Positions 112 through 14,255 of a stretch of 33,782 nt of DNA are shown here, one piece after another. This DNA comes from Candidatus Daviesbacteria bacterium. Its GTDB lineage: Bacteria > Patescibacteriota > Microgenomatia > Daviesbacterales > UBA10151. The notes under the pieces are model-generated. The model did not search any database, was not told the origin of the DNA, and saw only the letters and a program-made list of their open reading frames with translations. Every line of letters begins with the position of its first letter. The first letter of the stretch is position 1. Where the stretch lies: contig JACPKP010000014.1 in NCBI GenBank assembly GCA_016186955.1, positions 1 to 33,782 on the forward strand. Reading direction: 5' to 3'. Made by a program: the position numbers and the translations under genes.

Positions 112-2109
112 TTATTTTATGCCTTTTTTCTCTCTCATGATTTCACTAACTTTGTTTAATGCCTCCTGGGCACAAATATTGCAAAACCTATCTTCACCTC
201 TATCCGGGTCCATTAGCTTTTTTAACACCTCCTGGTAACGTTCCTCATCTTCCTCCTGTCTTGGCGGAAATTGTATTAAGACAGCCTCCGCTTTATTCCC
301 GTCTTCTTTGACAAATTTTCTTACCCCGGCTTCAAAATATGGCAAAGTCTTTTCATCACCCGTAATTACTTCAAATCTGAACTGACTTCTATCAGCCGGC
401 GCTAAAGTTCGTCCATGGATTTTATCCTCAAGTGTTTCTGCAGTTTTTGTATTGAGTGGTTCCAGCTTTCCCGTAACTCGGTTTTTCTTCATTTTATTTG
501 GGTTTTTCCCATCCAAGATTATTGCTATGTCTTCAATATAATCATCTATCGTTTTTTTTACCGATTCTTCAAAATTCAGTTGGAAGGCTGATTTTACTTC
601 TTCCGCTAGCCAAGTTTCGTATCTATGTTTTGCAGTTGGCATCCATGCTATCAAATTAGGCCTGCATTTTAGAAAATCATCGGCAGTATTATCAATCAAT
701 TCCTGAAAAAACCTGGCAGCCTTCAAAGGACTCAAACAAGTTTCACCTTCCACTGCGTAATCATTAAGCATGGTGAATAATTTTCCACTCATGAAAGGCG
801 GGGAAATTACGGCTACAATACGTCCACTGGTATCATTTGCAGCTGACTGCAATGCTTCGTATTTTTTCACCCCCTCTTCTTCTATGATTCGCCGGTCTTC
901 TTGGGTAAAACCTGCTATTTGTTTACCATCATATAATGACAGCTTCACCAGCATCCTTAGTTCGGAATCATTAAAGTTTTCCTGCGTGATATTTTTTTTC
1001 TTTTCAGCAAACTTTGAAAACTGACCCGAAATGTATTGAGACTCATCTTTTAGTCTTGATCTGATGGCTATTTCGCCCAAAAACTCCAAAAGTTTTGGCG
1101 CTAAATGTTGTTTGGGATGTTCTATAAAAAAAGGTCTTATTTCTTTCTTGTAAATTTCAACTTCCTTAGATATAGCGGTATTATATGGAATATAAACATT
1201 TCCAGTCCGCTCAACCAGCGGAATATTATCTTCAGGATTTTGAAAGTTCTGCCACTCCTTCGTGGTCGTTAAAGCAATAATAAAACAATCCGGATAGTAA
1301 ACCTTACTTCCTATCTTATGCCTTCTGCCACGGAAAAAATCATGAGTTGTATCAAGATATTGACTGTTTACTTTTTGCAACTCACTAATAACAAGCACCC
1401 CCCCGCTTGCACCTAAAACAATGCTGTTTATTCTTTTCCAGCTTTCCGTCTCAAGAGGTTTGGTATCTTTTGCATCCAACCTTGTTATACCAATTCCAAG
1501 AGATGCAGAATATTGATAAGTTTCAACTGGAATATCCAAAATATGCTCGGAGTCGTGGAGTTGATCACCAAACGTCTCTAGGCAATCCGGACAAAGCCCA
1601 CCCTCTATATGAATTTTATAGTGATCTTGAAAGCTCTGGCGGGCTTTGGGACCCAAAAGTTTCAACGGATTATCCCTTACCAAACATTTCGGTAAGCAGT
1701 AAAAAAACGGCCCTATTTCCGCTGCTTTTTTTTCAACAGCTTCGGTTATGATATCTGCAATATCTGACTTACCTGAACCTGTCGGCCCGATAACCATCAG
1801 TATTCTTTGCTTATCTAATACCATAGCGTTTATATTGGAACCAAGCCTATCCAGAGCACGGGCAATGCCAAACATACACTTTTCATCTTCTCTTTTAGTA
1901 AAAACCGGGTAATCTATATAACCTGTCACCGGATCAACTTTTGGTGCTGGTGAATTTACAGCCATTTTCACCAAATCTCCTGACCTCAAAAATGGATAGG
2001 CTATTTTCCCAGCCTCAATCATGGATAATAAACTTCCCAGATTATCCGCTTTTTCCGATTTAGATTGTGCTGCTTCTTTTTTAACCAGTTCTGCGATTGA
2101 TTCTTTCAT
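112..2109 (-). CDS. Divergent second PrkA-family AAA+ protein
   Basis: A 665-aa PrkA-family protein, the last gene of a four-gene operon. Seen: Walker A GPTGSGKS at residues 108-115, a CxxC (CPDC) at 173-176 after an IEGGLCP segment, and a C-terminal CNIC at 643-646. Each has a counterpart at a similar place in the PrkA at 4800-6737. The middle, however, has lost the very conserved PrkA stretch around the sensor and Walker B region; only a short GGVLVISELQK segment aligns with it. PrkA proteins are AAA+ ATPases described as serine kinases and, more recently, as Lon-like proteases, acting with YhbH and SpoVR in starvation or sporulation. The start overlaps the spoVR stop by 4 bases (ATGA), so translation is probably coupled. 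I infer a specialised paralogue that could form a mixed ring with the canonical PrkA. Family assignment is firm; activity is uncertain. Confidence 0.85.
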   Translation of the reverse strand: MKESIAELVKKEAAQSKSEKADNLGSLLSMIEAGKIAYPFLRSGDLVKMAVNSPAPKVDPVTGYIDYPVFTKREDEKCMFGIARALDRLGSNINAMVLDKQRILMVIGPTGSGKSDIADIITEAVEKKAAEIGPFFYCLPKCLVRDNPLKLLGPKARQSFQDHYKIHIEGGLCPDCLETFGDQLHDSEHILDIPVETYQYSASLGIGITRLDAKDTKPLETESWKRINSIVLGASGGVLVISELQKVNSQYLDTTHDFFRGRRHKIGSKVYYPDCFIIALTTTKEWQNFQNPEDNIPLVERTGNVYIPYNTAISKEVEIYKKEIRPFFIEHPKQHLAPKLLEFLGEIAIRSRLKDESQYISGQFSKFAEKKKNITQENFNDSELRMLVKLSLYDGKQIAGFTQEDRRIIEEEGVKKYEALQSAANDTSGRIVAVISPPFMSGKLFTMLNDYAVEGETCLSPLKAARFFQELIDNTADDFLKCRPNLIAWMPTAKHRYETWLAEEVKSAFQLNFEESVKKTIDDYIEDIAIILDGKNPNKMKKNRVTGKLEPLNTKTAETLEDKIHGRTLAPADRSQFRFEVITGDEKTLPYFEAGVRKFVKEDGNKAEAVLIQFPPRQEEDEERYQEVLKKLMDPDRGEDRFCNICAQEALNKVSEIMREKKGIK

Positions 2110-3599
2110 ATAGATTTACTTGATTGAGTTTTACCGTCATATGTCAAAAGAATTTTTTTCTTGTTCAAAACAGTTTCCAAATGAACCGGCCTACCCCAAA
2201 GCGCATAAACATGCTGCAGGGCTTTTTGAGCAAAATCAATCTTGATTTCCCTATCGTTTTGGTATGCATGCTTTAAATAAAGCTCCCTTTTTTGGTTATA
2301 ATCCACACCATCTACCGGTACATAAATTACCGGTCTGCCGAAATTAGTAAGCTGTTCTGCGATCGTAAACCGGATTTTCTCAGGGTCTTTTTCAGTAATA
2401 ACCCATTTACCATCATCCTGAAGTTCGTATTGGTACAAACCCAATTCCTCAATTAGATAATCCGGTAGAAAATCACGCATAAACCATTTATCGTTGTAAT
2501 CCCTCCTCACTTGAAAAATGTCATATTTAGGGTTGCCAATGGTTTCTTTAGGATCAAGTTCCTCCCCCAACCAATTTTTCTCAACCGCACCCTCAGGATG
2601 TGGGATACCTTTATGCTTTCTGTCGATATCTTCAAATATCTTCATCCCGACATTATAGGGGTTTAAATTATTTCTATGGGCAGCAATTACCCCCGCATGC
2701 ATTTTCGCAAACCTGATCCAATCATCCTGGGAGAGTTTATCCATATCGAGCAATTTTTGCATTATTTTGTGGTGCCAGTATGCAGCCCAACCCTCATTCA
2801 TAAGTTTTGTCTGTATCTGGGGAAGAAAGTACTGCTGTTCGTTGCGAACCATCAGTAATATGTCTTTTTGCCAGTCAGCCAGGTTATTGGGGGAAAACTC
2901 CGAAATCAGCCAAAGCAGATCACTTTCCTCTTCGTAGGGGATTGTGACTTTAACTTCCTCTACTTTTTCCTCTTTTACTTTGCCCAAATCCCAAATGTCA
3001 TCATAGGGTGTTGTGGGAGTCTGCTTTATCTTTTGTTTGTTTTTGCTTTCTTCCCTGCTTTGTTTTACATATTCCTGGGCTGTAGATCTGTTAAATTCTG
3101 CAGGTGTTGTACAAAAATGCATTTGGATCGCCAGTACGTGGTCTTGCCAATCTTCTACTTCGTCTTCACTGGTCTCCTTGGTAAATTCCCTCATCCTTTC
3201 CGCATGTACTGTAACAGTGTCCGGCATCTGTCTGTCCGTATGCTCAAACCAGATATTATTTTTGAAAAAATCCGTATGGCCCAATACATGCCCCACAACA
3301 GTCATATTTGCCACCAAGGCATTAGTCTCCATACAATAAGCTAAGGAGGGATTGGCGTTTATAACCAGCTCATAAATTTTACTCAGGCCATAGTCATACA
3401 TCGTCTTCATCATCCAGTAGTTTTTCCCGAATGTCCAATGGGAAAACCTGCCTGGGATTCCGTATGCCCCAAACTCATACATTTTCGTAGCAGGCACAAG
3501 CTTAAAATGGGTTGTGAAGAAGTCAAGTCCAAAATTTCTTGCCACATCCTCAATATTATCAATAGCTCTGTAAAATTTTTCCCGCTCTGTCATGCTCAA
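2106..3599 (-). CDS. spoVR: SpoVR family protein
   Basis: A 497-aa protein of the SpoVR/YcgB family, a normal length. Seen: the typical N-terminal region with FGLDFFTTHF, then a YGIPGRFSHWTFGK segment and a NANPSLAYCMETN segment, all hallmarks of the family. The biochemical function of SpoVR is not known; in Bacillus it is needed for normal spore cortex, and in many non-spore-formers it sits beside prkA and yhbH. Here it lies between yhbH (4-base overlap upstream) and the divergent prkA (4-base overlap downstream), so the three genes are almost certainly made together. A charged, Lys/Glu-rich linker lies at about residues 180-225, where the family is variable. No signal peptide or membrane segment is visible. 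The organism shows no sign of sporulation, so a stress or stationary-phase role is likelier. Confidence 0.93.
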   Translation of the reverse strand: MSMTEREKFYRAIDNIEDVARNFGLDFFTTHFKLVPATKMYEFGAYGIPGRFSHWTFGKNYWMMKTMYDYGLSKIYELVINANPSLAYCMETNALVANMTVVGHVLGHTDFFKNNIWFEHTDRQMPDTVTVHAERMREFTKETSEDEVEDWQDHVLAIQMHFCTTPAEFNRSTAQEYVKQSREESKNKQKIKQTPTTPYDDIWDLGKVKEEKVEEVKVTIPYEEESDLLWLISEFSPNNLADWQKDILLMVRNEQQYFLPQIQTKLMNEGWAAYWHHKIMQKLLDMDKLSQDDWIRFAKMHAGVIAAHRNNLNPYNVGMKIFEDIDRKHKGIPHPEGAVEKNWLGEELDPKETIGNPKYDIFQVRRDYNDKWFMRDFLPDYLIEELGLYQYELQDDGKWVITEKDPEKIRFTIAEQLTNFGRPVIYVPVDGVDYNQKRELYLKHAYQNDREIKIDFAQKALQHVYALWGRPVHLETVLNKKKILLTYDGKTQSSKSI

Positions 3600-4792
3600 A
3601 ACTCCATTTTTAATACTCTGTCTTTCTTAAAAAACTCCTTAAGCGCCATATAAACATCTGGTTTTTGGGTCAGAGTAACTCTTATAAACCTTGGATTTTT
3701 TATTACCTCATAGGCTTTCATTAGAGTAGAGGTCGCGTATGAACCTCTTCCTCCTTCCCTTATTTCACCATAACCAAACACATTACACCGGGGGTTATTT
3801 ATGTCAGGACCAAGCAATTTATTGATATACTTTATACATTCATTATTATCCACATCCCCCCAATTATCACCGTCTGAAAAATGGAACGGGTAAATATTCC
3901 ATTGTGAGATTGGAAAACGTTCATCAATTATCTTATCAGCCAATGCATATGCCGAAGATACTTTGGTTCCACCTGATTCACCCAGGTTGAAGAAAGCCTC
4001 TTCGTTCACCTCTTTGGCTTCGGTGTGGTGGGTAATAAAAACGATCTTTACTTCCTGATATCTTGACCGCAAAAACCTCACCATCCAAAGATAAAAACTT
4101 CTGGAAATATATTTTTCAAATTCCCCCATAGAACCGGAAACATCCCTCATGGCGATCACTGCAGCCTGGGACAACGGTCTTTCTTTTTCATCCCAGATCT
4201 TAAACATTAAGTCATCATCAATAATCCTATCCCAGCGGGTTTCTCCCCCAACTTTGGGATTTTTTACCCCACCCATAGCCTTACGTTTCAAGTGTCTTCT
4301 TAAAGTATATTTTTTATCCAGGTTGGGCATAAGCCCCTGGTGGCTCAACTCATCAAATTCCACTTCGTTGGTTTTAATCAATCTTCCTCCTTTAGGTAAA
4401 ATGAACGGGAGCGCAAGATCTGCAAATACCAATTCGGCCAGCTCATCCACTGTAATATCAACCTCATAGTAATCCACCCCTGGCTCTTGCCCTGCCTGTT
4501 TTCCTTTACCCGGGCCCTGGCCGCCTGGCTCTTGCCCGATAACATCCCCAACCTCACTACCACCATCCCCTTGCCCGACACCTTTATCATTCCTTCCAAA
4601 ACGGAAATCCGGCAAATCTAAACCACGAACCGGAACCCTGATAATTTTATCTCCATCTTTTGTGATCAGATCATGTTCACCGACGATATCTTTCAGGTTA
4701 TTTTTAATAGCTTCCTTAACCTTTTTGAGATGGCGCTCCTGATCCATTGGCGCCTTCTGATCAAGATCATAAGCCTCCGGTGATGATTTCAT
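3596..4792 (-). CDS. yhbH: YhbH/YeaH (DUF444) von Willebrand A-like protein
   Basis: A 398-aa DUF444 protein, the usual partner of PrkA. Seen: an N-terminal basic helix, the conserved VGQGDG segment at residues 72-77, a Gly/Gln-rich linker to about 105, and a C-terminal von Willebrand factor A-like domain with a MIDAS motif DVSGS at 217-221. MIDAS sites bind a divalent metal and usually mediate protein contacts, so the likely role is an adaptor between PrkA and its targets or SpoVR. The gene begins 7 bases after the canonical prkA stop and overlaps spoVR by 4 bases. The Gly/Gln/Pro-rich linker with repeated GQEPG units is low complexity and probably flexible. Length and domain order match the family. 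Confidence 0.92.
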   Translation of the reverse strand: MKSSPEAYDLDQKAPMDQERHLKKVKEAIKNNLKDIVGEHDLITKDGDKIIRVPVRGLDLPDFRFGRNDKGVGQGDGGSEVGDVIGQEPGGQGPGKGKQAGQEPGVDYYEVDITVDELAELVFADLALPFILPKGGRLIKTNEVEFDELSHQGLMPNLDKKYTLRRHLKRKAMGGVKNPKVGGETRWDRIIDDDLMFKIWDEKERPLSQAAVIAMRDVSGSMGEFEKYISRSFYLWMVRFLRSRYQEVKIVFITHHTEAKEVNEEAFFNLGESGGTKVSSAYALADKIIDERFPISQWNIYPFHFSDGDNWGDVDNNECIKYINKLLGPDINNPRCNVFGYGEIREGGRGSYATSTLMKAYEVIKNPRFIRVTLTQKPDVYMALKEFFKKDRVLKMEF

Positions 4793-4799
4793 ATCGGAT

Positions 4800-6737
4800 T
4801 TATTTGTTAAGCAGTGTACCTACGTATCTAACGAGTTCCCTGGCACAGGATTTGCAGTAGCCTTTTTTTTCAATCAGCAGCATTTCGGCCTCAATAAGTT
4901 TTTTCTCATCTTTATCCTCCAGCTTCCTACCACTTACTACCCCGCTTGTTATAACTCTGATTAAATCCTTGGTATCGTTAAACAGTTTTTTCTCAATCCC
5001 TTCACTTAACCTCTGATTAGAAGTATAGGTGAATTTTTCTCCCTTTCTGGTAAATGCTGCAACACCTATCATTATATCCTGCCTGAAACTTTTTTTCTCA
5101 TTTTCAGATATGCCAATCATTTCTTCGATAGACCGCATCAGTCTTTCATTAGGTTCTGTATACCCGCCTGATATCGGATCTTTAATCTTACCTCCTGTCT
5201 TAGTTGAGGCTTCGGCATTGTCAAGATAATTTTCCAAAATTGTCTGTGCCGCGTCCTGGAAAGCATGCACGAAAGCTTTCTGAACTTCTTTTCTGGCTTG
5301 CTTGTCATACTCTTCCCTGGCTAAATTAATGTGGTTTAGGATCTCTTTTTTCCTTTCCTCCGTATATGCAGGCTGATGTTCAATCTGACCCTTTATTGCC
5401 CGGAGGGCATCAATCGGGTTCACACAGATTTGTCCGTCGCCGCATACGGCTGTTGAAAGGGCATTAATTATAAACCTCGGGGAAACACCATCCATCCCTT
5501 CCCTTGGGTGCTCATCCCGCAGCTCCCTTGCGTCATTCTGATTTTTATCTGCAACTTTCTCCCCGTTATATAAAAGCATTTTCTGCACTATTGAGATTCC
5601 CTGTTTTTTGGGAGGCAGCAGGCGGGACAAAACAGCAACCATGGAACAAACCTTTAAGGTCTCAGGAGCAATGTGTATGTCTTTTATGTCACCTTCGCGG
5701 ATCAGTTTTTCATAAATCTTAATTTCATCATCAATCCGCAAATTGTAAGGAACCGCAATCATATGGATCCTGTCGTGGAGGGCTTCCGACCTTTTATCTG
5801 CTGTAAATGCCTGGAATTCGTGCTCATTAGTATGGGACATAATCACCTCATCCGCGTAAATTAAAGCAAAACGTCCGGTTTTAATATTCTGCTCCTGTGT
5901 TAGGGTTAAAAGGTTATAAAGGAATTTCTGGTCAACTTTCAACATCTCAATAAATTCCATCATTCCCCGGTTGGCAATATTCAGCTCCCCATCAAATCTA
6001 AATGCGCGTGGGTCTGATTCCACACCGAATTCACCGATTGTTGATAAGTCAATTGAGCCGGTCAATTCTGAGATATCCTGGCTCTTCGGGTCGGAAGGGG
6101 TAAAGGTACCAATGCCTTTTCTCCCTTTTTCCGAGAATACAACCCTTTCAAGGGGAACTTCAAAGATATCCCCATTGTACCGATCTTCAGTCATCTTTTC
6201 GCAAACCGGACACAATCTTCCTTCGATACATACACCATGTTCTTTTTCAAGATTGGGTCTGAGCTCCTCCGGAATCAAATGAAGCGGATCCTCATGCTGA
6301 GGGCAACCTTTAATTGATATAACTATACCCTCTTTGGTTTTGGAATATTGTTCTGTACCTTTCTTTAAGTGCGAAACTATCGTAGACTTACCGCCTCCGA
6401 CAGGACCCACAAGAAGCAGTATTCTTTTGCGGATTTCCATCTTCCTCGCAGCGCCGGCAAAATATTTTACCAGCTCATCCAAGGTTTTCTCCTCACCAAA
6501 AATCACCCCATCAAAGAAATGATATTTTCTGTAATCCTCACCTTTCTCTTCATTAGGTTCATCAAAACCATGGCTCATAATCATGTCATAAGCCCGGCCG
6601 TGCGCTAACCTATTAACTTTTGAGTTTTCTTTTAGAAGATCCAAATAATCCTGAAGCTTGCCCGTCCACACTAAACTACGCTCTTTAGCAAGATATTCTT
6701 CATATTCTGATTTTAGTTCAATTCTTTCTGTTAACAT
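4800..6737 (-). CDS. prkA: Canonical PrkA AAA+ serine kinase/protease
   Basis: A 645-aa PrkA, first gene of the operon. Seen: Walker A GPVGGGKS at 111-118, the PrkA signature KGCPQHEDPLHLIP from about residue 143, CPVC at 176-179, the highly conserved GELNIANRGMMEFIEMLK and a nearby TQEQNIKTG segment of the AAA core, and a C-terminal CKSC at 628-631. The length matches PrkA from Bacillus and YeaG from E. coli. Known for the family: an ATPase active in starvation, acting with YhbH and SpoVR. The start codon has no Shine-Dalgarno site. A predicted transcription start about 25 bases upstream fits the promoter at 6769-6796. The two CxxC motifs could bind zinc; that is inference. Confidence 0.95.
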   Translation of the reverse strand: MLTERIELKSEYEEYLAKERSLVWTGKLQDYLDLLKENSKVNRLAHGRAYDMIMSHGFDEPNEEKGEDYRKYHFFDGVIFGEEKTLDELVKYFAGAARKMEIRKRILLLVGPVGGGKSTIVSHLKKGTEQYSKTKEGIVISIKGCPQHEDPLHLIPEELRPNLEKEHGVCIEGRLCPVCEKMTEDRYNGDIFEVPLERVVFSEKGRKGIGTFTPSDPKSQDISELTGSIDLSTIGEFGVESDPRAFRFDGELNIANRGMMEFIEMLKVDQKFLYNLLTLTQEQNIKTGRFALIYADEVIMSHTNEHEFQAFTADKRSEALHDRIHMIAVPYNLRIDDEIKIYEKLIREGDIKDIHIAPETLKVCSMVAVLSRLLPPKKQGISIVQKMLLYNGEKVADKNQNDARELRDEHPREGMDGVSPRFIINALSTAVCGDGQICVNPIDALRAIKGQIEHQPAYTEERKKEILNHINLAREEYDKQARKEVQKAFVHAFQDAAQTILENYLDNAEASTKTGGKIKDPISGGYTEPNERLMRSIEEMIGISENEKKSFRQDIMIGVAAFTRKGEKFTYTSNQRLSEGIEKKLFNDTKDLIRVITSGVVSGRKLEDKDEKKLIEAEMLLIEKKGYCKSCARELVRYVGTLLNK

Positions 6738-11764: not shown

Positions 11765-13174
11765 CTACTTCTTTCTCCAATGCCCCAGGCCCAAAAACTG
11801 CTTCATATGGAGCGGGAGGTGGTGCTCGGCAAAGAAAAAATCAGGCTTGAGGGCTAAAAACCCTAGTATGGAAATCACCCCACCCAAAGCTATAAATATT
11901 GGTGTTGTCCCAAAAACATCAGCCATGACCCCTGCAAAAAGTACGGGCAAAAGGGACATCCCGGCCATTACTACACCCAAGGTTGAGAAAACCTTACCCC
12001 TGTCCCCCTCGGGCGTACTATCCTGGATTACTGTTTGTGATGGGACAACGATGGAAACCATCGCAACACCCAATAAAAATGACCCAAAAGCTAGGACTGC
12101 TGATAACGGCGGTTGATAGAAAAAAGGCAGGGGTTTCGGCTTCCTCAACATCATAATCCGGTTATTTGTGATAATCCGTTCAGAATATTTTATCGCCGGG
12201 GAAATTATTGGGGCAAACCCGACTGTAAACAGGAGTAAGCCTGCTAAAATAATACCTCTCCCCACTATAATTCTTCTGGGGAATTTATGTCCCAACCTGC
12301 CAAGGCAAAAACCGCCAAGCACCATCCCCAACCCCAATGGCAAAACCAAAACCAGTGATGCTTCTGTTGCCCTAATCTGCACAACCCTTTCAAAAAATGA
12401 AGGCACTAAAACAGCCAAAACCCCTATCACCATCTGTACACCGGCCATAATCATGATTGCCGAAAAAACAATCAGTTTACCCCTTATCAACCTTATAGTC
12501 TCCCCAATCTCCTGTAATACCACCCGTTTGATGGAACCGGCATCCTTTTGCCTTAAAGCTTTTATCAAAAGCCTCCCCTGTTCATCCCGCTTATTCAAAA
12601 TGGGGGGGAACCTGAAAGCCATTAAAAATGCAGCAGATGCCAGGACAGCTTCAAGCTTAAAGACAAAATTTATCCCCAGATGGGTCAGGAGCGGACCGGC
12701 CAGTCCAAACCCGAGCAAAAAAGCTGAAAAAAGGGTTATGGAAAAAAGCGCATTGGCAGCAAGGAGCTGGTGTTTTTTAACTACCAGCGGTATCGCAGAG
12801 GCTTCCGAAGGATTATAAAATTGTATTAAAGTATTTATGAAAAAAGTTACTGCCAAAAGAGCAATAAAGTTTGTCTTTAGATAAATTAGGCTGATAAAAC
12901 ATACTGCCAATAAAAAATTAACCCAGAGGATAACTTTTTTACGGTCAGTTACATCAACCAGGATGCCTGTCAATAAACCCAAAATCACTGCCGGCAGGTA
13001 AACCGCGAAAAGCAGCGCTGAGACTGCGGTATTGGAATCAGTCAGTTTAAATACCCAAATTATGAGTGCAAAGTTTAACGAGTTATAAGCAAATTGCACC
13101 AGTATCTGATTTATCCAAAGGTTTAGAAAACCCCTATTTCTGATCACAGTGCTAAAGGAAGCGTGCTGCTGCAT
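11765..13174 (-). CDS. MFS transporter
   Basis: A 469-aa polytopic membrane protein of the Major Facilitator Superfamily with about twelve hydrophobic segments. Seen: the loop motif GILVDVTDRKK between TM2 and TM3, which matches the MFS G-x-x-x-D-R-x-G-R-(K/R)-type motif, and a second half starting near residue 220. It most resembles multidrug-type (MFS_3-like) exporters, but the substrate cannot be read from sequence. It is a distant paralogue of the transporter at 15450-16685: both begin FLxLWxNQILxQ. A TACAAT hexamer (13193-13198) lies upstream, giving a leader of about 12 bases. The cytoplasmic loop between TM10 and TM11 is long, with a PKPLPFF segment. The metallopeptidase gene follows 12 bases downstream. 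Confidence 0.88.
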   Translation of the reverse strand: MQQHASFSTVIRNRGFLNLWINQILVQFAYNSLNFALIIWVFKLTDSNTAVSALLFAVYLPAVILGLLTGILVDVTDRKKVILWVNFLLAVCFISLIYLKTNFIALLAVTFFINTLIQFYNPSEASAIPLVVKKHQLLAANALFSITLFSAFLLGFGLAGPLLTHLGINFVFKLEAVLASAAFLMAFRFPPILNKRDEQGRLLIKALRQKDAGSIKRVVLQEIGETIRLIRGKLIVFSAIMIMAGVQMVIGVLAVLVPSFFERVVQIRATEASLVLVLPLGLGMVLGGFCLGRLGHKFPRRIIVGRGIILAGLLLFTVGFAPIISPAIKYSERIITNNRIMMLRKPKPLPFFYQPPLSAVLAFGSFLLGVAMVSIVVPSQTVIQDSTPEGDRGKVFSTLGVVMAGMSLLPVLFAGVMADVFGTTPIFIALGGVISILGFLALKPDFFFAEHHLPLHMKQFLGLGHWRKK

Positions 13175-13217
13175 AAACTTAGCCTAAACAGTATTGTACT
13201 ACACTTATACTTGCATG

Positions 13218-13252
13218 AAAAAAGCCGGGGGCGGTTAGGCGCCCCGGCTTTT
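13218..13252 (-). terminator. Strong intrinsic terminator
   Basis: Stem AAAGCCGGGG/CCCCGGCTTT of ten base pairs around an 11-base loop; read on the minus strand it ends in a run of six T. It ends the micro-ORF transcript that starts near 13542 and separates it from the MFS gene. Read on the plus strand the T run is only four. Confidence 0.85.
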
Positions 13253-13332
13253 GAAGAGCCAGATCAGGCTTGGCCGGTCTTCAGACCGCTTGTAGGCCTT
13301 TGACCAACTCTCACCTTCTCAAAGTCTCACCT

Positions 13333-13410
13333 TTAATGCACCGACCAGCCTACCGCCAAAATCGCAAGGGTCGCTAGGATGAAAAATGCTAGATAGGCTA
13401 GATAACCCAC
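13333..13410 (-). CDS. 25-aa hydrophobic micro-protein
   Basis: A GTG-started ORF encoding 25 residues, nearly all hydrophobic (starts GYLAYLAFFILATLAIL after the initiator, ends VGWSVH), which would form one membrane helix. AAGGAG lies six bases before the GTG, an ideal Shine-Dalgarno spacing and one of the best in the window. A consensus-like promoter (13549-13577) and a strong terminator (13218-13252) enclose it in a transcript of about 325 bases. No family recognised. It could be a membrane micro-protein, a type I toxin-like peptide, or the reading frame of a dual-function RNA. Confidence 0.55.
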   Translation of the reverse strand: MGYLAYLAFFILATLAILAVGWSVH

Positions 13411-13437
13411 AACTCTCTCCTTACTGCGTTACCAATC

Positions 13438-13512
13438 TCAATCTACCGGATCATCCGGCAGAAGGGTAACTTGCAGCAACCAGACCACTGATGAAAATGG
13501 GCTGACCGCCAC
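13438..13512 (-). CDS. Possible 24-aa leader peptide
   Basis: A GTG-started ORF upstream of the hydrophobic micro-ORF in the same transcript (begins AVSPFSSVVWLLQV, ends DDPVD). The ribosome binding site is weak (CAGG) and the peptide is of no known family. A CCGGA/TCCGG hairpin falls near its end. It may simply be untranslated leader. Confidence 0.2.
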   Translation of the reverse strand: MAVSPFSSVVWLLQVTLLPDDPVD

Positions 13513-13548
13513 AAACTACCTGAAAAGTATATTTAAAAGAACTTAACA

Positions 13549-13577
13549 ATTATATTAGAATTATAGGCTAAAGTCAA
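13549..13577 (-). promoter_or_regulatory. Near-consensus sigma70 promoter
   Basis: On the minus strand: TTGACT, 17-base spacer, TATAAT. It faces the micro-ORF unit, and the predicted start is near 13542. No other gene lies between it and the terminator at 13218, so it must serve this small transcript. Confidence 0.8.
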
Positions 13578-13614
13578 CTATGTGCTAAAAGATATATCAA
13601 GTTTATACTTGTAC

Positions 13615-13989
13615 TTATGAGGGGGAAATTATCTTAATATCTTTCATTGGAAAATCAGCTTTGTTGTTTGTAACAAGAGTCAGATGGTTTATTTTAGCTT
13701 GCGCTGCTAAAAAATAATCCAACAATTGAACTCTCCTGGTTTTCAGAAACTTTTTCCTATAATGAGCTGCTAATTCAGCTATTTCCAAATCAACTGGTAA
13801 AATAGGAAATCGCAAAATAAGCTTATTTATTTTCTTTTCTTCTGCTTGTAATGCTTGTGCTAAGAATTCACTTACTGTGATTACAGATAAAGAGAGTTGT
13901 TTTCGGGAAATAACTTTTTCAAGAAAACTTTTATCCGGGTTCTGAGCTTTAATCCCAAGAATTAAAACATTAGTATCTAAAAGATACAT
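13615..13989 (-). CDS. PIN-domain ribonuclease toxin (VapC-like)
   Basis: A 124-aa PIN domain. Seen: the first acidic residue in YLLDTNVLI (Asp5), a conserved Glu in ITVSEFLAQ near residue 41, Asp in LLDYFLAAQA near residue 90, and a terminal VTNNKADF. These are the four acidic metal-binding positions of VapC-type RNases, which cut tRNA or rRNA. It begins two bases after the antitoxin gene, the usual order for vapBC. Length is typical. The target RNA cannot be inferred. Confidence 0.9.
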   Translation of the reverse strand: MYLLDTNVLILGIKAQNPDKSFLEKVISRKQLSLSVITVSEFLAQALQAEEKKINKLILRFPILPVDLEIAELAAHYRKKFLKTRRVQLLDYFLAAQAKINHLTLVTNNKADFPMKDIKIISPS

Positions 13990-13991
13990 TT

Positions 13992-14255
13992 TTAAAAGAT
14001 TTTTCTGTCTTTACGGATCTCTCTTTGCCAGTTAATTATGTCTTCTTTGGTCATACCATCCCAACCACTCTTTTTGACTCCAGAAGTGAATTCTTTAGCA
14101 AGTTTTGTAAGATCAATTTTGCTTTTCCTCCGCCTAACAATACGTTCTGAAGCAGCTTTTCTCAAATATTCAGCCCTGCTTTCCCCACTTTGGGCGCGGT
14201 CACGGTCTATCTCTCTCCTTAAGTCTTCAGGTAAATAAATCTGTGTTCTTTGCAT
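13992..14255 (-). CDS. Ribbon-helix-helix antitoxin (VapB-like)
   Basis: An 87-aa protein with an N-terminal ribbon-helix-helix: the strand RTQIYLP, then helices EDLRREIDRDRAQSG and SRAEYLRKAASERI. The rest is a Lys/Trp-rich tail (LTKLAKEFTSGVKKSGWDGM) that would wrap the toxin. It lies two bases upstream of the PIN toxin and would repress its own promoter. A TATAAT at 14264-14269 places the transcription start only one or two bases before the ATG, so the message is probably leaderless; that promoter is inside the 3' end of mutM. Confidence 0.87.
   Translation of the reverse strand: MQRTQIYLPEDLRREIDRDRAQSGESRAEYLRKAASERIVRRRKSKIDLTKLAKEFTSGVKKSGWDGMTKEDIINWQREIRKDRKIF

Follow-up and report, generated by a model that had tools for sequence, protein, structure and literature searches.

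What might be encoded by the compact unit, running from a promoter to a terminator, that lies between a VapC gene and a gene for an MFS transporter in Candidatus Daviesbacteria? The unit lies in a stretch of 33,782 nucleotides (hereafter the window) from the tiny genome of this CPR bacterium, for which an earlier note had described a promoter, a ribosome site, a hydrophobic ORF and a terminator in close succession. We confirmed this observation: the minus strand carries all of the elements, and from 13577 to 13218 they follow each other with correct spacing in the order promoter, two 5' hairpins, Shine-Dalgarno (SD) site, ORF and terminator. The interpretation offered with it was partly supported. 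We tentatively favour, with a confidence that stops a little short of even, the reading that the unit is a lineage-specific, free-standing gene for a single-pass membrane micro-protein, and that its SD site is probably occluded by the structure of the mRNA itself.

The promoter (13549–13577, minus strand) consists of TTGACT at 13577–13572 and TATAAT at 13554–13549, separated by a 17-nt spacer, TTAGCCTATAAT. It matches the consensus at 11 of 12 positions and was the top-ranked site in our promoter scan, so that its description as near-perfect holds. Transcription is predicted to start at approximately 13542, and the predicted transcript (13542–13218, minus strand) is 325 nt long, in agreement with the earlier estimate of about 325 bases. 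The intrinsic terminator (13218–13252, minus strand) is indeed strong, with a predicted folding energy of −22.5 kcal/mol and a run of T (U in the RNA) after the stem, although its perfect stem (arms at 13252–13242 and 13230–13220) has 11 bp and not the ten bp claimed. The GC content of the unit is 0.49, compared with a mean of 0.40 for intergenic 328-nt windows of the host genome.

Within the transcript, the sequence AAGGAG (13417–13422, minus strand) is located 6 nt 5' of a GTG codon that opens an ORF of 25 codons with a TAA stop (13333–13410, minus strand). The deduced peptide, MGYLAYLAFFILATLAILAVGWSVH, contains no Lys, Arg, Asp or Glu, and its best 19-residue Kyte-Doolittle window scores 2.29, which corresponds to one hydrophobic segment of transmembrane length; the reported 25-residue hydrophobic ORF is thus present, with GTG as its start. 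When the transcript was shuffled 3000 times with its dinucleotides preserved, 1 shuffle contained an SD-led ORF as hydrophobic as this one, a figure that overstates the significance because the test was chosen after the unit had been seen, and 13 contained an ORF of 20 codons or more with such hydrophobicity, with or without an SD site. Only one of the 42 intergenic SD-led small ORFs of the genome is more hydrophobic. Its codon usage is atypical (0.557 versus 0.756 ± 0.066), in that 99.7% of native windows score higher, as do 99.3% of GC-matched ones, and it includes three rare CTA codons for Leu. Such usage is compatible with a gene that was acquired or born recently and with a non-coding RNA.

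Folding of the 328-nt transcript yielded a z score of −3.45, with none of 100 dinucleotide shuffles being as stable. The structure is located in the two UTRs, with z scores of −3.7 for the 5'UTR (mononucleotide shuffles) and −4.4 for the other, versus −0.85 for the ORF body, the least structured part. The 5' region is predicted to form a first hairpin of 56 nt (13465–13520, minus strand), with a 19-bp stem that includes G-U pairs and is extended by 5 bp, and a second hairpin (13442–13462, minus strand) with a 9-bp stem and a 3-nt loop. The ribosome site had been called ideal, which is correct for its sequence and its 6-nt spacing but not for its accessibility: the SD site is predicted to be mostly paired, with a probability of being unpaired of about 0.03–0.26 across AGGAGAG in the ensemble, and when the 5'UTR is folded in isolation, CUUUUC at 13527–13522 is the pairing partner of GGAGAG. 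A 13-nt motif resembling AAGGWGAGAGTTG is present in three copies on the minus strand (window positions 13305–13333 and 13410–13422), one of which contains the SD site of the ORF and two of which lie directly 3' of its stop codon.

These features also make room for the main rival to the micro-protein gene, namely that the unit is a gene for a structured non-coding RNA, for instance a trans-acting sRNA, whose 25-codon ORF either has no role of its own or does no more than stabilise the transcript. The strong folding of both UTRs, the elevated GC content, the unusual codons, the predicted occlusion of the SD site and the three copies of the AAGGWGAGAGTTG-like motif, one bearing that site, are all consistent with such an RNA. 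The correctly spaced SD site and hydrophobic ORF would then, however, be a coincidence on the order of 1 in 3000, albeit by a post hoc choice of test, and covariation has no relatives to draw on. A search of Rfam with the unit gave no match at the gathering threshold and, even at an E value of 10, only one match, of 8.8 bits (E = 8.8), as expected by chance; ARAGORN found nothing in the unit, whereas the host tmRNA was found elsewhere, on L115. We consider an RNA gene of this kind unlikely, though by no means negligible, and a known Rfam RNA (6S, tmRNA, a riboswitch or others) was rejected given that no covariance model matched.

The use of SD sites in the host bears on the favoured reading of the unit as a micro-protein gene. 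The 3' end of the 16S rRNA, GGATCACCTCCTTT, is present in the genome and carries the usual anti-SD sequence. By approximate counts from a simple longest-ORF caller, run on successive stretches that together span the genome, a GGAG, GAGG or AGGA 4-mer precedes only 76 of 676 ATG-start genes (11%) genome-wide, and AAGGAG only 12 of 676. The statement that surrounding genes mostly lack ribosome sites therefore holds for the whole genome, in which 89% of ATG-start genes are without an SD-like 4-mer. Orphan units that extend from a promoter to a terminator are likewise few, with only 7 in a genome of 1.37 Mb and 58 strong terminators. Two further members of these 7 are small-protein genes, one with an SD site and a GTG start for a double zinc ribbon protein of 73 aa (L105:9906-10252, minus strand; Pfam Zn_Ribbon_1, 1.9e-8) and one for a 65-aa Cys-rich protein (L115:8266-8573, minus strand) that has no homologue in the family genomes. 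A 57-aa SD-led membrane ORF with a GTG start (L081:2810-3240, minus strand), for which no convincing homologue was found in the family, is preceded by the promoter TTGACTTTAGACCTATAATATGCTATATT, the only other promoter of the genome with the spacer of the unit, TTGACTTTAG(A)CCTATAAT, with one gap. Given these two small-protein units and the L081 ORF, the design of the unit recurs for small proteins.

The same genome also contains a 32-aa SD-led membrane ORF, MDFYATVFAVAYTVFALFVLVISGTIKVPGLH, on the minus strand of L127 (at 15534 of the reverse complement), in a GC-rich stretch and with a strong terminator after it. Orphan promoter-terminator units at L110:2284-2503 (minus strand) and L108:10871-11080 (plus strand) have strong folds and no convincing ORF; they are candidate non-coding RNAs, with no Rfam match.

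Lack of conservation of the ORF in relatives had been named as an outcome that would refute the proposal, and the ORF was found in none of the genomes searched. A search of 45 family genomes and 374 genomes of the class with the peptide detected no homologue, only weak matches (L032, L152-L159); among those that lay in small frames, inspected together with some from the L081 control, none proved to be an SD-led small gene. The peptide had no match in Pfam, PHROGs or NCBIfam. The DNA of the unit gave only chance matches, of at most 37 bits, in 57 relatives; phages and plasmids gave only chance matches to the AT-rich promoter region, and a pattern search of viral contigs for the unit found none. 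The same kind of peptide search did recover a 34-aa ORF of L093 from other genera. Since the genomes searched include no other species of the genus, the missing homologues indicate lineage specificity rather than lack of function. The proposal of a membrane micro-protein still stands as the best reading on the strength of a non-chance ORF, its SD site and the similar small-protein units.

Upstream of the unit, on the same strand, are the genes for VapC (PIN; 13615–13989, minus strand) and an RHH antitoxin (13992–14255, minus strand). Downstream is the MFS gene (11765–13174, minus strand), which the earlier note did not mention and which is conserved in the family without the unit: orthologues are present in 39 of 45 family genomes, and relatives of the protein occur in records from Candidatus Daviesbacteria and from other Microgenomates/Patescibacteria. 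The unit was missing from every relative among the 30 MFS upstream regions that we read, the window's own being one of the 30. The gene directly upstream of MFS was most often MutM, usually 5 to 65 nt away. Given its absence from relatives, the unit represents an insertion or a local birth between VapC and MFS that is private in the available data.

The same comparison invites the reading that a fragment without function in this host, such as the remnant of a mobile cassette, was inserted here recently or came in by horizontal transfer. The private insertion amounts to about 390 bp (roughly 389 bp) in a region that is otherwise tight in relatives. It is flanked by a 9-bp direct repeat, TTATACTTG, at 13205–13213 and 13603–13611, a possible target duplication; about 1% of random pairs of intergenic 45-mers have a 9-mer in common. 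Atypical codons and GC content point the same way. On the other hand, promoter, SD site, ORF and terminator are each intact, nothing similar was found in phages, plasmids or viral contigs, and the unit is a single copy without terminal inverted repeats, so that we claim no transposon class for it. We regard a functionless fragment as improbable, and an insertion element or MITE was rejected, the 9-bp direct repeat being the only such feature present.

The proximity of the MFS gene, whose ATG is only 43 nt from the end of the terminator, raises the further idea that the unit is a 5' leader of that gene, in which a leader peptide and the terminator would form a drug- or amino acid-responsive attenuator as in mef(E). 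The MFS protein is Mef-like by profile, the ORF has three rare CTA codons, and leader-peptide attenuators are used in the lineage. The mef(E)/mel leader, comparable in size and parts, contains hairpins, an SD site, a leader peptide and a terminator within 327 nt upstream of an MFS efflux gene (PMC4335068). The unit shares with it the hairpins, SD site, short ORF and terminator upstream of an MFS gene; its peptide, however, is a hydrophobic one of 25 aa, whereas Mef(E)L has 8 residues and is related to known stalling peptides. No competitive antiterminator was found in the unit, pairing of the 5' arm of the terminator with upstream RNA reaching −11.7 kcal/mol versus −22.5 kcal/mol for the terminator. 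The MFS gene moreover has a promoter-like site of its own, TTTTCA-17-TACAAT, outside the unit (13193–13221, minus strand; promoter scan), and in 28 of the 30 loci a −10-like hexamer, TACAAT in the window, precedes the ATG by 13–59 nt. The sequences of loci L034-L062 suggest that the MFS genes of the family may have very short or leaderless mRNAs. With this promoter conserved where the unit is missing, and with no mutually exclusive antiterminator, we disfavour attenuation of the MFS gene and judge it quite improbable.

More doubtful still is a recently acquired dual-function RNA, combining a regulatory transcript that hides its SD site with a membrane peptide, as one of a set of SD-dependent, GC-rich micro-gene cassettes (L081, L105, L115); the unit is probably a micro-protein gene of an ordinary kind. 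The suggestion of a type I toxin was not borne out with respect to the antisense RNA that defines this class: a consensus promoter scan, which would miss a weak or distant promoter, detected no promoter-like site on the plus strand that reads across 13218–13542, and the only one nearby (13532–13561, plus strand) is directed away from the transcript. We therefore do not claim membership of a type I toxin-antitoxin system. Adjacency to a VapBC pair, as noted earlier, is real, but a functional association is not apparent, in that VapC is the direct upstream neighbour of MFS in L042, L043, L057 and L059, where the unit is missing; a VapBC operon accessory was rejected and the link is positional only.

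For the micro-protein gene that we favour, we infer the following course from the arrangement of its parts. The strong sigma-70-type promoter would give rise to a highly folded mRNA of about 325 nt that stops at its own terminator. Ribosomes would bind AAGGAG and start at GTG to produce the 25-residue peptide, which would be inserted into the membrane as a single spanning helix. The 5' hairpins may let the SD site meet pyrimidines that lie close to the 5' end and, with the site so covered, translation would probably stay low as long as the leader has not been opened, cut or melted. The peptide would act at the cytoplasmic membrane, either by modulating a membrane protein or by depolarising the membrane.

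MgtS, KdpF, CydX and AcrZ are small single-pass regulatory membrane proteins. The unit resembles this type in size class, in its predicted single helix and in being a standalone short gene, but differs in having no identified partner complex and no match to a sequence family. In layout, DinQ is the closest working analogue: dinQ of E. coli has a structured transcript of about 330 nt with a GTG start, encodes a 27-aa peptide with a single transmembrane segment, and forms a type I system with agrB (PMC3567139). The 325-nt transcript, the GTG start and the 25-aa putative membrane peptide of the unit are similar, whereas no antisense sRNA was detected for the unit; the phyla are far apart and no sequence similarity is claimed.

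The significance of the unit is modest given that no relative carries it. Annotation of CPR genomes relies chiefly on large conserved genes, and standard procedures miss micro-genes of this sort that run from promoter to terminator. Given that an SD site and a leader set the unit apart from the 89% of ATG-start genes without an SD-like 4-mer, SD-led micro-genes may mark a gene set that is separately controlled or acquired.

The 34-aa ORF of L093 proved to belong to a conserved RNA element, for which we built a covariance model, R1, from four sequences. Of the 45 genomes of the family, R1 matched 41 at E ≤ 0.1 and about 37 (~80%) at E < 1e-6, with weaker matches in other families of the class. 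The copy in the host genome is at L181:1501-1624 (= G000:C15:55124-55247, minus strand), with further copies at L179, L180 and L182-L208. Covariation was strong, with both sides changed in 20 of 26 pairs across 44 aligned matches (alignment A2); 93.9% of cells were paired, compared with 83.7% in shuffled controls and at most 64.6% in slid controls, figures that are flattered by an alignment fitted to the structure. The leader ORF is near-leaderless and hydrophobic, rich in Leu, Val and Ile, and ends with LGGLFR* in many copies. As judged from the sequence, the segments CCUCC, GGGAGG, CCUCCC and GGGAGG could pair either as 1:2 and 3:4 or as 2:3, and the 3' part contains a terminator, often followed by an SD-led gene; one copy is upstream of an HMGL-like (leuA-type) gene. 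R1 has the layout of an amino acid-type attenuator, and naming the regulating amino acid would be a guess. Rfam gave no match at the gathering threshold for the host copy, and the best weak matches in relatives, to gltS RNA (41.3 bits, cut-off 47.5) and Phe_leader, were both below the cut-off; R1 is an attenuator-like element without an Rfam family. The unit shares with the R1 attenuators its lineage, a promoter, a hydrophobic ORF and a terminator, whereas R1 members differ in being near-leaderless, in their covarying fold and in often having an SD-led gene downstream. Model R1 had no match at the unit, which was therefore rejected as a member, a result that also counts against attenuation of the MFS gene. 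The R1 attenuator across Daviesbacteria is better supported than the unit and probably of more importance.

Elsewhere in the window (112–6737, minus strand), genes for a PrkA kinase, a YhbH-like protein and a SpoVR-like protein lie side by side in this CPR genome.
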